From: Deltaproteobacteria bacterium | GTDB taxonomy: Bacteria > Myxococcota_A > Polyangia > Polyangiales > Sandaracinaceae | Assembly (NCBI GenBank): GCA_017303575.1 | Contig: JAFLCL010000017.1 | Coordinates: forward strand, 1 to 64,000 | Direction of reading: 5' to 3' | DNA: 64,000 bases | The notes under the pieces: model-generated | What the model was told of the DNA's origin: nothing | What the model saw: only the letters and a program-made list of their open reading frames with translations | Database searches by the model: none | Shown: one piece after another, positions 45,478 to 52,251 of the stretch | Layout: each line of letters begins with the position of its first letter | Numbering within the stretch: position 1 is the stretch's first letter | Translations under genes and position numbers: made by a program

Positions 45478-46754
45478 GCGGTCTCCAGCACGGCCTTCAC
45501 GGTGTCCTCGATCCCGAAGCGCGGTGTGAAGCCGAGCTCGCGTCGCGCTCGTGTGTCGTCGACCATGCAGACGTAGCGGATGTGATCGAGCTCGGGGCTC
45601 GGGAACGACGTCATGCGGTAGCGGAACGCGCGCTTGAGGCCCGCCTCGAGCAGGCCGCCCGGCACCGAGACCGGCCTTCGCCCGAGGATGCGGAACACGT
45701 GGCTCAGCGGCACCTCACCGGGACCTCGAAGGTTGAAGATGCCGCGCACGCCGCGTCGCACCGACAGCCGCACGGCCTCGGCGACGTCGCGCTCGTGGAT
45801 CACCTGCACCATCGGATCGAAGCCGAGCGCCTTGAGCGGCCGCTCGAGACGCAGGTAGTTCGAGGGCGCGTTCCGCACGCTGCCCAGGATGTGGCAGGGC
45901 CGCAGGATCACGGTCTCCACCTGCGGGTTCTTCCAGAAGAAGCTCTGCGCGAGGTGATCGACCTCGACGAGATCGCGGATCTCCGAGAAGGCCTGCGCAC
46001 CGAGCAGCGGCGCGTCCTCGGTGAGGAACTGCGGATTCTCGGGGCTCGGTCCGTAGACGTTGGCGCTCGAGAGCACGACGAGCTTGGGCACGCCGTACTG
46101 CGTCATGTACTCGAGCACCTTCTGGAAGCCGACGACGTTCCAGGTGTGGTGCTCCTTCGGGCTCGCGCGGAGGTCGTGCATGATGCCGAGGTGCACGACC
46201 GCGCGGATGCCGCCCGCGCGGAACACGTCGCGCGTCTTCTTGCGACGCAGATCGAATTGGTGGTGGACGATGTCCTTCGGCTTGCCGACGAAGGGGCGTC
46301 GGTCGATCCCGATCACGCGATCTTCGCGGTGCACGAGGCGCGCGACGAGGCGACCGAGTCGTCCGCAGATGCCGGTGACGAGCACCGCGCCATCCCAGTC
46401 GTTCGGCACGCGCGGCGTCGACAGATCGCCCGCGCTCGTCGGTCGGATCGAGGGGCTCTTCTCGCTGCCCGTGATCGCCAGCGGGTCGGGCACGGGCGCA
46501 GCATCGAGCGACACGCTCGTCTCGAAGAACGCACGCAGCTCGCCCGACGCGCTCGGAACTGAGACAGCGGGTGCGCGGAGCGATCCGCTCGACGTGGTCT
46601 CGTGGTTGGCCTGCGAGGGGGATGCCCCCTCGCGCTCCCCCGCACTGCGACTCAGCCCTCTCCGCTCCGCTCCGAGGTCTTCGGGCTTCCGCGGCGCGCG
46701 TGCGGCGGGCCTCGGCCCCGAGGGCCTCTTCGGCATCGTATCGTCGTCGCTCAT
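45474..46754 (-). CDS. NAD-dependent epimerase/dehydratase (extended SDR) with long N-terminal extension
   Basis: A 426-residue protein. Residues 1-115 are a low-complexity Pro/Arg/Ser-rich extension not found in ordinary epimerases. The Rossmann domain starts at about 120 with VLVTGICGRLGRLVARLVH (GxxGxxG-type) and continues IRAVVHLGIMHDL, LVVLSSANVYGPSP and CHILGSVRNAPSNYLR. The usual catalytic Y-x3-K is not evident: the equivalent place reads AFSEIRDLVEVD, with Phe and Arg. The protein may bind a nucleotide sugar or NAD without classical epimerase chemistry. Substrate unknown. Confidence 0.82.
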   Translation of the reverse strand: MSDDDTMPKRPSGPRPAARAPRKPEDLGAERRGLSRSAGEREGASPSQANHETTSSGSLRAPAVSVPSASGELRAFFETSVSLDAAPVPDPLAITGSEKSPSIRPTSAGDLSTPRVPNDWDGAVLVTGICGRLGRLVARLVHREDRVIGIDRRPFVGKPKDIVHHQFDLRRKKTRDVFRAGGIRAVVHLGIMHDLRASPKEHHTWNVVGFQKVLEYMTQYGVPKLVVLSSANVYGPSPENPQFLTEDAPLLGAQAFSEIRDLVEVDHLAQSFFWKNPQVETVILRPCHILGSVRNAPSNYLRLERPLKALGFDPMVQVIHERDVAEAVRLSVRRGVRGIFNLRGPGEVPLSHVFRILGRRPVSVPGGLLEAGLKRAFRYRMTSFPSPELDHIRYVCMVDDTRARRELGFTPRFGIEDTVKAVLETA

Positions 46755-46770
46755 CGATCCCTCGGGGGGC

Positions 46771-49700
46771 TCATTCGAGCCTTCGATAGTAGATGTCGCC
46801 GTTCGAGCACGAGGTATCGCCCGCCGTGCCCGTCGGGCAGTCCGTGCCGCGGCGGTGATCGGTCCACGCCACGTGGATGCGGCTGCCGGAGACGGCGATC
46901 GTCGGCTCCTGGCTGTCGCTCGTGCCGACCGTCGAGCTGTCGAGGCGGTAGTCCTGCGGCTGCCACGTCGCGCCCTGATCGAGCGAGAAGTTCGTGTAGA
47001 CGTCGAGCAGGCCCGAGCGATCGTCGGACCACGCGATGCCGATCACGTTGCCCACGCCCGCAATGGCGAGGTCGTAGCTGCCCGACGCGCCCGGGGCCGT
47101 GCCGGTGTCGACGCGCTCGACCGTGCCGAAGGTCGCGCCCGCCGTGGTCGATCGCACGACGTACGGATCGGGGAAGCCCGAGCGGTAGTCGATCCACGAC
47201 ACGAGCACGTCGCCCGTGTCGGGCGCGATCGCGTGCGGCTCGATCGAGTCGTGATCGAGCGTGTCGCCATCGAGCTTCACGGCGTTCGACAACCACGTGC
47301 TGCCGCTGTTGGTCGAGCGGTTCAGCCAGATGTCGAAGGAGCCGCGATCACGATCGTCGACCCACACGACGTACGCGTTGGTGCCCTCCGCGGCGACATC
47401 GGCGGAGAAGCTCGACGAGCTGCCAGCGGTGGTGCCCGTGTCCATGCGCTGCTCGGTCGCGACGAACGCCGCTGTCGTCACGTTCCATGCGCGGAGGAAC
47501 ACGTCGAGCGAGCCCGAGCGGTTGTCGCGCCACACCACGTAGACGCGATCGGCCGTGGCCGCGATGCGCGGCTGCGCGGCGATGAAGTCCGGCAGGGCGC
47601 TCGTCGAGACCTGCGACGGGGCGCTCCACGTCGCGCCCGAGTCGGTCGAGTGCGAGAGGAAGATGTGGCGGCTGCGCGCGGTGGTGAACGCCTCGTAGGC
47701 CGCGAACATCGTCGTGCCCGCCAACGCGATGCGGACGTTGTACGAGTCGGTCGTGGCTGTCGTCCCGCTGGCGTTCGCGCGGATCTCCGTCGCCGCCGGC
47801 GTGCTGCCTGCGGCGTCGGTCGAGCGGCGCGTCCAGATCTCTCGGTAGTTGGTGCCGCCGCGGAAGTCGGCCCACGCCCAGAGGACGTTGCTCGCGCTGA
47901 ACATCACCTGCGGTCCGAAGGTGTCGCCGTTCGTCGTGTTGAGCCGTGTCGCGGCGTTGAACGACCCGCCGTTGTCGATCGAGCGCGCGTAGTAGACGCG
48001 CGCGTCGAGATCGGGGTCGCGGAAGATCGTCTCGGTCCAAATGACCTGCACGTTGGCGCCGCTCGAGGCGATCACGGGACGGAGCGAGTTCGTCTGGCTC
48101 TGCGTGGACTGGGTGTCGAGACGCCGATCCGTGCCCGTCGGTCGTAGACAACCCTCGTCCGCCGTTCCGTCGCAGTCGTTGTCGAGCGTGTCGCAGCGCG
48201 TCTCGACCATCTGGTAGAGCGCCGGCAGGTCGCAGGCCCATCCCACCGCGCCGCGACACGTGGGCGTTCGGCCCGCGCACACACCGCGTGTCTCTGCGCA
48301 GCTCGGTACGCTCGCGGCGGAGGGCGTCGTCAGGCTGTCGTCCGCCGCGCCGTCGCAGTCGTCGTCCAAGCCGTTGCAGCTCTCGGTGCCCGCGCGCACC
48401 TCGCCCGAGCACACGAACGCCCCGCCTGCGCCACACGCGACAGCGCCGTAGCTGCAGATGCCGACATCCGTCGCGCCGCAGCGATCACCGACACCGCGGA
48501 TCGGCGTGGGCGCGACCGACTCGTCCGTCCGCCCGTCGCAGTCGTCGTCGACGGCGTTGCAGAGCTCGTCGATCGCGCCGATGCCACCGACGCACGTGAG
48601 CGCGCCGCGAACGCACGCGGTCGTGCCCGAGTCGCACGCGCCCGTCGCCACGCCGCAGGTCGAGCCCACCATCGGGTCGGCTTCGTCGATCGCGCCGTCG
48701 CAGTCGTCGTCCACGCGGTTGCACGTGTCGGCCGCGCCGCTCGGCGTGCACATGTACTCGCAGCCCGTGCGCGGATCACCGTCCACGTCGAACCAGCCCG
48801 GATCGCAGTCGGCCGGCCCGAACGTGCACGCGCTCGCGACGCAGCGGCCGCTGGCGTTGGGGAACACGCACGTGCGTCCGCACGCGCCGCAGTTCATCGC
48901 GTCCGTCGCCGTGTCGAAGCCGTCGTCGATCATGCGATCGCAGTCGTCGTCGACGCCGTTGCACACCTCGACGCCGCCTGCGCCCGGCGTGCACGCGTAC
49001 TCGCAGCCGTTGCTCGGATCACCGTCGGAGTCGACGTAGCCCGAGTTGCACGCCGTCAACACGCACACGCTGTCCACGCAGTCGGGCGTGCCGTTGGGGA
49101 ACTGGCACTGCGTCGCGCAGGTGCCGCAGTGCGCGATCTCGCTCGTGAGATCGAAGCCCTCGTCGGTGCGACCGTCGCAGTCGTTGTCGCGCTCGTCACA
49201 GAGCTCGTCGCCGTCGGGCGGACAGCCGTACTCGCAGCCGTTCGCGGGCACACCGTCCAGATCGACCCAGCCGATCTCACAGCGCTCGACGGCGCACTCG
49301 CCCATCGTGCAGCCGGGGAACGCGTGATCGAGCGTACACACCTGACCGCAGCGGCCGCAGTTGCGGGGGTCGCCTTCGAGGTCGAACTCTTCGTCGGTGA
49401 GGCCGTCGCAGTCGTTGTCGATCGCGTCGCAGATCTCGTCACCCGAGATCGTGCAGCCATCGACCGAGCCGCCACCGCCGGTGTCGGGGCGCCCCGCGTC
49501 GGTGAAGACTGCTGCGTCGAGGCGCTCTTCGTCGCAGCCCGAGAAGCAGAAAGGGTCGACGGCGCAGCCCTCCGCGCCGATCGCGAGCACCGTCGTGATC
49601 GCGATGCCCGAGAGCTGTTTCACACGCGTGCGGCCGATCGACGCGCGACGCAGCGAGACCCGACGTCGCGACAGACCGAGCAGCAGGAGGCCCGCGATCA

Positions 49701-52251
49701 CCCAGAGCGCGCGGCTGCTCGTGCTGGGTGCGGAGGGCGCGCCGACCACGCTGCAGAGGCATCCACCGCCGCCCGCCGCGAGACCACGCATCGCGTCGGG
49801 TCGGGGCAGGATGGCGGGATCGATGCACTCGCCCTCGTCGCAGACGAGCGCGCCGGGGCAGCTGATCGCGCGGCAAGGATCATCGACGCAGCTGCCCGCG
49901 CGGCAGACGCGGCCGCGCCCACAGCCCGGCGTGCACGTGTCGGCGACGCAGCGTCCTTCGACACACGTCCGGTTCGCGCCGCACTCGCCGTCGCAGGCAT
50001 CGTCGACGCAGACGCCGTCCTCGCAGAGCGTGCCGATGTCGCAGACCACGTCGCACGTCGCGACGCACGCGCCGTCGCGACAGAACTCGCCGGTCGCGCA
50101 GCTCGTGGTCATGCACGCATCCTCGACGCAGGCGGGCGTGCCGCCCGCTTCGGTGCGGCAGATCTGACCGGCGGGGCAGCCGCGGCCGTAGCAGTTGTCC
50201 TCGACACACGTTCCGCGCACGCAGCCGTAGCCACTGGGGCACATCACGTCGTCGCAGAGGTTCTCGCACTCGCCCGTCTCGGGGTTGCAGACGGACTCCA
50301 TGTCGCACGCCACGCCCGAGCATCGACCCGCGACGCAGTAGCCGCGGATGCCCATGCCCGGATCTCCGATCGACTCGTCGCAGACGCGGCCTGGGGGACA
50401 GGGGAATTCGCCCGGATCACAAGGCGATGCGCAGGTGCACTCGGTCGCGACGCAGGCGCCGCCGGGGCACAGCGGATCGGCCGAGGTCTCTTCGTCGACG
50501 TTGCCGTCGCAGTCGTCGTCGAGGCAGTTGCAGAGCTCGCTGCCGCCGCTCGCTGCGCCCTGACACGCGAGCTCACCCATCAAGCAGCGCGTCGTGCCGG
50601 CGCGGCAGATCACGCCGCCATCGACGTCCGGTCCCGCATCGGGCGGCGGCTCGAAGCCTCCGCCGGGCAGCGGCACACACGAGTCACCGCCGCCGGGGTT
50701 GCCGTCATCGATCACTCCGTCGCAGTCGTCGTCGACGTTGTTGCAGATCTCGTCCGCGGGCAGCGGCGCGTCGCAGTCGACGAACATGCCGGCCACGCAG
50801 CGCTCGCTGCCCACGCCGCACGCCGTCGAGCACGCGCGTGTGATGCCCTCGTCGATCATGCCGTCGCAGTCGTCGTCGAGGTTGTTGCAGGCCTCGACGC
50901 CCGCGGCCGGTGCGGTGCATCCGGAGAACACGCCTCCGCGGCACACCTCGGTGCCCGTGCCGCAGCTGTTGCTGCAGTCGCGCACGAGGCCTTCGTCCAC
51001 GCGGCCGTCGCAGTCGTCGTCGTCCGCGTTGCACACCTCGACGTCGGGCGGCGGTGCCGAGCACGCGCCGAACACGCCGGCCACGCACGTCTCGGTGCCG
51101 CTGCCGCAGTCGCTCGCGCACGCGCGCGAGATGCCTTCGTCGACACGACCATCGCAGTCGTCGTCGGTGTTGTTGCAGGTCTCGAGCGTCGGGGTTCGCG
51201 CCGTGCAGCCGCCGAACGTGCCGCTGAGACAGATCTCGGTGCCAGTGCCGCACGCGTTCGAGCACGCGCGCGAGAGGCCCTCGTCGGTCGAGGCGTCGCA
51301 GTCGTCATCGACCGTGTTGCACGTCTCGCTCGAGGGAACGCGCGCGCTGCACGCGCCGAAGCTGCCCGCCATGCAGCGACGCGTGCCCGCGCCGCACGCC
51401 GTCGAGCAGGCCATCGTGAGGCCTTCGTCGATCATGCCGTCGCAGTCGTCGTCGTCGTTGTCGCAGGCCTCGGGGCGCGGATCGCACTCCGGCACGAGGC
51501 CCGAGCCGCGCACCAGCATGTCCTCGTAGTCGTTGTCGCCGCCGCGGTAGAGATCCTCGAAGCCGAAGTAGAAGGTGTTCACGCGCGTCGCGCTGCGGTG
51601 CACGAGGAAGTGCACGAAGTCGCCGTCGTCGTTGAGCGCCGCGCTCGTGAAGTAGATGCGGTTGTTCGTGTCGAGGCGCCCACCGCACGAGTCGTTCACG
51701 TTCGCGCCCGCGGGATCGCAGCCCACGTCCATCGGACAGCCGGAGGGGAACGTGCCGTCCTCGCTCGTGCCGCCGGTGAGCCGCTCGGGTGAGCGCAGCC
51801 AGAAGCCGATCTGGCGACCGACGCTGAAGCCGGACTGGAGATCGAAGTCCACCGACACGGTGCGCGTGGTCGTGCACGGGCAGTTGCAGGTGGGGTAGGT
51901 GCGGCACCCGAAGATGGTGCGGAGGTTCGCGGGGTTGGTGACGTCCTCCCCGACCCAGAACCAACCGAACGTGTTGCGGTAGCCCGCGCCCTCGCCGATG
52001 TCCGTGAAGCTCACGCGGTAGTGGCCGCTCACCGCGTCGAAGACCGGGCGGTACGCCTCGGGCAGGATCGCCGCGTCGGCGATGGCATCGACCGCCATCG
52101 GCGTTCCCTCCGAGAGGTCGAGGCACTGCTGGAGGCGCGTCGTGACGGGCACGACCGTGCCGTCCGCCTGGTTGATGTAGGCGTGCGAGGCGCTCGGCGT
52201 GGCGACGATCGCGGCGAGGGTGGCGAGAAGAAAGACTGCGGTGCGACGCAT
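46771..52251 (-). CDS. Giant Cys-rich surface protein: DUF4114-like + MopE repeats + MYXO-CTERM, fused to lipoprotein-like MopE/BNR segment
   Basis: A single open frame of 1826 residues from ATG 52251. Signal peptide 1-24 (MRRTAVFLLATLAAIVA). A DUF4114-like domain ends in FYFGFEDLYRGGDNDYEDML (about 235-255). Six MopE-type units follow (EACDNDDDDCDGMIDEG and relatives), then EGF-like C-x-C repeats (to about 815). A MYXO-CTERM-like sorting signal lies at about 827-864: GCLCS, then a hydrophobic stretch, then SRRR. Immediately after comes a second export-like start (V877-KQLSGIAITTVLAIGAEGC), more MopE units, and about 450 residues of sialidase/BNR-like repeats (1375-1826: VIWTETIF, VYYARSIDNGGSF). 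See findings: this may be two fused genes. Confidence 0.8.
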   Translation of the reverse strand: MRRTAVFLLATLAAIVATPSASHAYINQADGTVVPVTTRLQQCLDLSEGTPMAVDAIADAAILPEAYRPVFDAVSGHYRVSFTDIGEGAGYRNTFGWFWVGEDVTNPANLRTIFGCRTYPTCNCPCTTTRTVSVDFDLQSGFSVGRQIGFWLRSPERLTGGTSEDGTFPSGCPMDVGCDPAGANVNDSCGGRLDTNNRIYFTSAALNDDGDFVHFLVHRSATRVNTFYFGFEDLYRGGDNDYEDMLVRGSGLVPECDPRPEACDNDDDDCDGMIDEGLTMACSTACGAGTRRCMAGSFGACSARVPSSETCNTVDDDCDASTDEGLSRACSNACGTGTEICLSGTFGGCTARTPTLETCNNTDDDCDGRVDEGISRACASDCGSGTETCVAGVFGACSAPPPDVEVCNADDDDCDGRVDEGLVRDCSNSCGTGTEVCRGGVFSGCTAPAAGVEACNNLDDDCDGMIDEGITRACSTACGVGSERCVAGMFVDCDAPLPADEICNNVDDDCDGVIDDGNPGGGDSCVPLPGGGFEPPPDAGPDVDGGVICRAGTTRCLMGELACQGAASGGSELCNCLDDDCDGNVDEETSADPLCPGGACVATECTCASPCDPGEFPCPPGRVCDESIGDPGMGIRGYCVAGRCSGVACDMESVCNPETGECENLCDDVMCPSGYGCVRGTCVEDNCYGRGCPAGQICRTEAGGTPACVEDACMTTSCATGEFCRDGACVATCDVVCDIGTLCEDGVCVDDACDGECGANRTCVEGRCVADTCTPGCGRGRVCRAGSCVDDPCRAISCPGALVCDEGECIDPAILPRPDAMRGLAAGGGGCLCSVVGAPSAPSTSSRALWVIAGLLLLGLSRRRVSLRRASIGRTRVKQLSGIAITTVLAIGAEGCAVDPFCFSGCDEERLDAAVFTDAGRPDTGGGGSVDGCTISGDEICDAIDNDCDGLTDEEFDLEGDPRNCGRCGQVCTLDHAFPGCTMGECAVERCEIGWVDLDGVPANGCEYGCPPDGDELCDERDNDCDGRTDEGFDLTSEIAHCGTCATQCQFPNGTPDCVDSVCVLTACNSGYVDSDGDPSNGCEYACTPGAGGVEVCNGVDDDCDRMIDDGFDTATDAMNCGACGRTCVFPNASGRCVASACTFGPADCDPGWFDVDGDPRTGCEYMCTPSGAADTCNRVDDDCDGAIDEADPMVGSTCGVATGACDSGTTACVRGALTCVGGIGAIDELCNAVDDDCDGRTDESVAPTPIRGVGDRCGATDVGICSYGAVACGAGGAFVCSGEVRAGTESCNGLDDDCDGAADDSLTTPSAASVPSCAETRGVCAGRTPTCRGAVGWACDLPALYQMVETRCDTLDNDCDGTADEGCLRPTGTDRRLDTQSTQSQTNSLRPVIASSGANVQVIWTETIFRDPDLDARVYYARSIDNGGSFNAATRLNTTNGDTFGPQVMFSASNVLWAWADFRGGTNYREIWTRRSTDAAGSTPAATEIRANASGTTATTDSYNVRIALAGTTMFAAYEAFTTARSRHIFLSHSTDSGATWSAPSQVSTSALPDFIAAQPRIAATADRVYVVWRDNRSGSLDVFLRAWNVTTAAFVATEQRMDTGTTAGSSSSFSADVAAEGTNAYVVWVDDRDRGSFDIWLNRSTNSGSTWLSNAVKLDGDTLDHDSIEPHAIAPDTGDVLVSWIDYRSGFPDPYVVRSTTAGATFGTVERVDTGTAPGASGSYDLAIAGVGNVIGIAWSDDRSGLLDVYTNFSLDQGATWQPQDYRLDSSTVGTSDSQEPTIAVSGSRIHVAWTDHRRGTDCPTGTAGDTSCSNGDIYYRRLE

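Follow-up and report, generated by a model that had tools for sequence, protein, structure and literature searches.

A probable two-product polyprotein with head-to-tail sorting signals, formed by an old in-frame gene fusion in Myxococcota

A single open reading frame on the minus strand of the window, the 64,000-nucleotide stretch of DNA that was analysed, is best read as an old in-frame fusion that is made as one polypeptide and acts as a polyprotein of two products, in which two sorting signals stand head to tail; the probability given to this reading is about 0.66. The frame runs through a MYXO-CTERM-like signal into a lipoprotein-type signal, as the first-pass annotation had noticed, and the first signal's Arg cluster directly adjoins the hydrophobic core of the second; neither this nor the recurrence in other genes is part of that annotation. 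The junction is conserved among relatives, most fused members lack a re-initiation signal, both cysteines are kept, genes for MrtC, LspA and Lgt-like proteins are present in the source assembly (G000, 540 contigs) and the same arrangement recurs in other genes. Since many related species retain it and unrelated genes show it again, the arrangement appears to be a built-in polyprotein and not a sequencing error. The parts of the gene are as follows.

46771..52251, minus strand: the single ORF, 1826 aa plus stop
52180..52251, minus strand: N-terminal signal peptide, residues 1-24, MRRTAVFLLATLAAIVATPSASHA, found by eye from the sequence
51478..52179, minus strand: N-terminal domain, residues 25-258, with DUF4114 (Pfam, structure prediction)
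50422..51483, minus strand: MopE-type repeats of the first half, about residues 257-610 (Pfam, sequence)
49792..50421, minus strand: Cys-rich repeats, about residues 611-820 (sequence)
49660..49770, minus strand: internal MYXO-CTERM-like signal, residues 828-864, with the Cys831/Cys833 motif, helix and Arg cluster (TIGR03901, 18.2 bits, cut-off 20)
49672..49710, minus strand: first hydrophobic helix, residues 848-860, presumed to run from outside to inside (sequence)
49618..49668, minus strand: Arg-rich loop, residues 862-878, with GTG 49623 (sequence)
49573..49614, minus strand: hydrophobic core of the second, lipoprotein-type signal, residues 880-893 (sequence, rough signal detector)
49564..49566, minus strand: lipobox Cys896 (AEGC), residue 1 of the predicted second mature protein (sequence comparison)
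48151..49464, minus strand: MopE-type repeats of the second half, about residues 930-1367 (Pfam, sequence)
46774..48126, minus strand: C-terminal domain, residues 1376-1826, a predicted beta-propeller resembling sialidases (structure prediction, Foldseek)

The frame begins with ATG at 52251, ends with TGA at 46773-46771 and contains no internal stop on the minus strand. Along it, GGGCLCS (828-834) is followed by ALWVIAGLLLLGL (848-860), SRRR (861-864), VSLRRASIGRTR and V877, which is encoded by the GTG at 49623, and then by KQLSGIAITTVLAIGAEGC up to Cys896. The Arg-rich loop 862-878, which reads VSLRRASIGRTRVK, is both the tail of signal 1 and the n-region of signal 2. Two plus-strand ORFs, 49129-51792 (887 aa) and 46060-48147 (695 aa), lie antisense to the fused gene and are probably shadows of high G+C coding.

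The MopE repeats noticed earlier behind the second signal are recognised by Pfam in both halves of the protein (nine stretches, 103.9 bits, cut-off 27), and DUF4114 is found in the first half (34.8 bits, cut-off 27). For the BNR-like repeats that had been proposed, the Pfam BNR models stay under their cut-off across the fused protein, but the C-terminal domain is predicted to be a beta-propeller resembling sialidases: its model (pLDDT 87.8, pTM 0.89) finds sialidases as the top hits in the PDB (Foldseek E 8.8e-12, TMq 0.41). The model of the N-terminal domain is weaker (pLDDT 69.5) and resembles, weakly, the fold of calcium-dependent lectins of the PA-IIL type (Z up to 7.9), from which a lectin function is not adopted.

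The internal signal has the three parts of a MYXO-CTERM, which are a Cys motif, a hydrophobic helix and an Arg cluster, and it lacks the C-terminal position of one, as 962 residues come after it. The TIGR03901 (MYXO-CTERM) model is absent from the NCBIfam hmmscan listing of the whole protein, so the match of the genome-level profile search was taken instead, which scores 18.2 bits against a curated cut-off of 20. The orthologue in G002 is also under this cut-off (14.6 bits), and other back-to-back genes pass it, among them the amidase gene of G002 (31.6 bits) and C6 of G000 (20.1 bits). By score and position the fused gene is outside TIGR03901, yet it probably works like a member. The second half has the basic n-region, hydrophobic core, small residue at -1 and Cys of a lipoprotein. 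The lipobox rule has an uncharged residue at -2, and the fused gene departs from it by Glu894 at -2 of Cys896; Glu stands at this position in 3 of the 31 fused rows compared, and also in free-standing lipoproteins of G236 and G237. This signal is internal in the fused gene and N-terminal in the separate orthologues of the second half, which look like ordinary lipoproteins.

From these parts we infer a topology, lipidation and cleavage at both sites, with equal output of the two products as the benefit. Sec would export the first half, the MYXO-CTERM helix would act as a stop-transfer sequence whose Arg cluster stays cytoplasmic, and the second hydrophobic core would restart transfer, so that the chain would cross the membrane as a hairpin and both halves would lie outside. 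Processing at Cys896 by Lgt and LspA would then release the second half with a lipid at its N terminus, processing at Cys831/833 by a lipidating enzyme and the myxosortase (MrtC) would release the first half as a surface protein with a lipid at its C terminus, and the hairpin would be left over as waste. Of the ten CPBP genes of G000, one scores above the cut-off of the MrtC model (226.1 bits against 195), two genes are over the cut-off for LspA, and nine Lgt-like genes, all under the TIGR00544 cut-off, are located on contigs C508, C229, C114, C239, C116, C30, C52, C59 and C268. The nine-gene Lgt-like expansion may be a lead toward the enzyme that lipidates MYXO-CTERM. The Lgt-like gene on C116 adjoins an LspA. 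The CPBP protease L206 (G000:C434:39149-40371) resembles the archaeomyxosortase MrtA (86 bits, cut-off 200), and its gene lies just upstream of the genome's best MYXO-CTERM match.

In a first search of relatives, 33 of 38 genomes gave some match, which was near full length and without internal stop in G000, G006, G004, G011, G016, G030, G037 and G032, and in two frames instead of one in G027 and G013. A scan of named genomes kept 79 loci, and a class-wide search with the second half covered 317 genomes, of which 93 match with an E value no higher than 1e-40. Some named loci appear identical to loci with G handles, their contigs being equally long, and one locus per genome was therefore retained. 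The junction is open in 28 of the 40 tree rows (family f1 3, f3 1, f4 7, f5 4, f8 1, f18 1, f21 1, f22 9, uncoded 1) and two genes are present in 12, so a fused orthologue, proposed earlier as a test in all relatives, is found in most of them. The single-contig genome G002 also has the open junction. One frame runs throughout in 26 of the 28 fused tree rows; G187 and G087, with a frameshift outside the junction, are counted as fused. These frameshifts, in the second half of L162 (G187) and the first half of L135 (G087), are assembly errors or decay. G001, G180, G091, G228, G186 and L041, where one half is missing from the contig, are outside the tree, and G253, in which the lipobox was not found, is in the tree only.

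The tree, whose root was not inferred and which therefore does not distinguish fusion from fission, needs 2 state changes, when shuffled labels average 10.5 and 0 of 500 are as low; the open junction is more than chance. The two genes are separate in f12 and in part of f5, where they overlap at ATGA after a GGAGGTGCGCG-like stretch, with a Shine-Dalgarno sequence, and this separate f5 clade adjoins the fused f5 clade. The orthologue in G002 (L369, just after the MYXO-CTERM at G002:C1:9990039-9990149) has ANAGT three times in its inter-signal loop, which looks as if it were free to vary.

The arrangement is not confined to one gene. TIGR03901 matches, 203 in three genomes, were followed to their stop: the best 71 of 89 in G000 (down to E 0.975), 82 of 82 at E <=1 in G002, which is one contig, and 50 of 50 at E <=0.05 in G106, which belongs to another order. 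A match with a Cys motif runs on for at least 200 codons in four cases in G000, of which three (the fused gene, C80 and C6) reach a lipoprotein-type signal and C90 an SPI-type signal; in seven cases in G002, six lipoprotein-type and one SPI-type; and in five in G106, four lipoprotein-type and one SPI-type. Thus a second signal peptide follows all 16 of these long internal MYXO-CTERMs, 13 of them of lipoprotein type, the type being assigned by eye in every case; the 16 cases are at most 14 different genes, since G000 and G002 share two orthologous pairs (the fused gene and the amidase). A rough signal detector responds in 11/11 of the G000 and G002 cases, against 788/9620 random positions. In C2 of G106 the second lipobox is about 61 residues further on, as counted by eye. 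Judged to be short noise or no MYXO-CTERM, and so left out of the 16, were C84 (129 codons) and C526 (88) in G000, neither with a Cys motif, although the rough SPI detector does respond to C526; 10108873 (no Cys motif), 7047552 (117 codons), 7084542 (44) and 857673 (39) in G002; and C32 (87 codons), C3:66801 (79, no Cys motif) and C47 (32) in G106.

Gene C6, an amidase fused to a lipoprotein, is matched in 15 of the 183 genomes searched from the order. The frame was recovered at 13 of 14 loci, and all 13, which include the single-contig G002 and the two-contig G007, are the same kind of fusion, in which a single frame holds the Cys motif, the helix, the Arg cluster and a further hydrophobic stretch; the spacer between the two hydrophobic segments is much longer at three of them (L264, L268, L269). 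Ahead of the second signal, a start codon is missing from 5 of 12 loci of this family, and none of the 12 has a Shine-Dalgarno run of at least 4. C80 has no full-length fused homologue among 38 genomes, its second half stands alone in G001 and G037 as a normal lipoprotein that starts at an ATG of its own, and its fusion looks lineage-specific. It seems that head-to-tail fusions form repeatedly and that some of them persist.

A single protein that is never cut, in which the hairpin would be a permanent inner-membrane anchor and the halves would stay joined, fits the hairpin topology equally well and is the least improbable of the alternatives. Nothing in such a protein would preserve both cysteines and a small residue ahead of the second one, yet the residue at -1 of the lipobox Cys is G in 25, A in 3 and S in 3 of the 31 fused rows, and a Cys stands ahead of helix 1 in at least 29 of the 31, the other two being G001, which is cut by the contig end, and G093, which was unparsed and reads GGSGC. 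This retention argues for use of both sites and against a plain anchor. The separate-gene relatives also have the same two signals on two proteins. The net charge of the loop is +2 to +13 in 30/30 parsed fused rows.

Translation of the second half from its own start at GTG 49623, with the open frame being a mere missing stop, is unlikely, and somewhat more so than the uncut protein. That GTG sits 19 codons before Cys896, and when the segment 14-30 codons ahead of the lipobox Cys was searched, a start codon of some kind was found in 21/31 fused rows and an ATG in 8/31, so that individual fused members may still use an internal start (G186, at a contig edge, is outside this test). There is no ATG, GTG or TTG in that segment in the other 10/31; the same-genus genome G001 has no start codon there, and C80 has none from its Arg cluster to its lipobox Cys. 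With a Shine-Dalgarno sequence taken as a run of at least 4, one is found together with a start codon in 13/13 separate rows, at a spacing of 6-7 bases, and in 3/31 fused rows, with a spacing of 12 bases in G016 and G187 and in front of a GTG 28 codons ahead in G174, while GTG 49623 itself has a run of 2; the Fisher p values of the second-start comparison, 1e-8 and 4e-6, ignore relatedness and are descriptive only.

A fusion that is processed as in the polyprotein and brings no benefit is less probable again. The two signals would already separate the products, and the loss of a stop would therefore be harmless; the separate f5 relatives, with their ATGA overlap and Shine-Dalgarno sequence, have coupling either way, and the lineage-specific look of C80 fits as well. 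The 2 state changes on a deep tree suggest that the fused state has been held, which weighs weakly against neutrality. An assembly or sequencing error that joined two genes, which a 540-contig assembly might suggest, is refuted by the same junction in the 28 tree rows and in the single-contig G002. The choice put forward in the first-pass annotation, between one large protein and two genes lacking a stop, most likely ends in a mixture, with one old fused chain that its internal signals probably split in two.

Beyond this gene, we see even odds that head-to-tail sorting signals are a regular polyprotein route of Myxococcota, used by several genes per genome, in which the Arg cluster doubles as the next n-region, stop and start codons are dispensable, and myxosortase and LspA, one per hairpin helix, release two surface proteins in equal number. 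To our knowledge, there is hardly any description of bacterial polyproteins from which sorting and signal peptidases release several envelope proteins. If the polyprotein reading is true, the annotation of such genes changes, natural substrates with large, easily separated products become available for testing the myxosortase, the enzyme that adds the lipid and the order in which the cuts are made, and the fusion shows how two secreted genes can join and yet remain two proteins.

A precedent for a fusion cut at a central sorting site, as proposed here, is HVO_0405 of Haloferax volcanii (see also Abdul Halim 2017). This protein has a central tripartite sorting signal, and its cleavage depends on the archaeosortase pathway (PMC7157517). 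Unlike the fused gene, it is archaeal, has another enzyme and motif and is called strain-specific, and the passages on it in that source mention no second signal peptide (PMC7157517). In bacteria, MrtX cuts MYXO-CTERM, and internal MYXO-CTERMs in ORFs are described as rare, with MXAN_5598 named as a case whose first part is proposed to be processed (Guo, Haft and Wall 2025, PMC11980579). MXAN_5598 is similar in that its ORF has a MYXO-CTERM inside, may be two genes fused and has a first part for which surface anchoring is proposed; it differs in its second part, an outer-membrane barrel with an OmpA domain, and the passages on it in that source describe no lipoprotein signal and treat it as atypical and rare, where here a second signal marks a class that recurs (PMC11980579). 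The traA-traB genes, a MYXO-CTERM protein gene overlapping the next envelope protein gene, resemble the relatives with the ATGA overlap and differ from the fused gene in having two reading frames and not one chain (PMC11980579). A literature search of limited full-text reach found no prior report of a directly following second signal, its wide conservation or its recurrence; the internal MYXO-CTERM is already published (MXAN_5598), and these three elements are new. In the 2548-codon frame of the G002 locus L347 (G002:C1:867999-868106), an SPI-type signal and a barrel-like sequence come after an internal MYXO-CTERM, an arrangement that recalls MXAN_5598.
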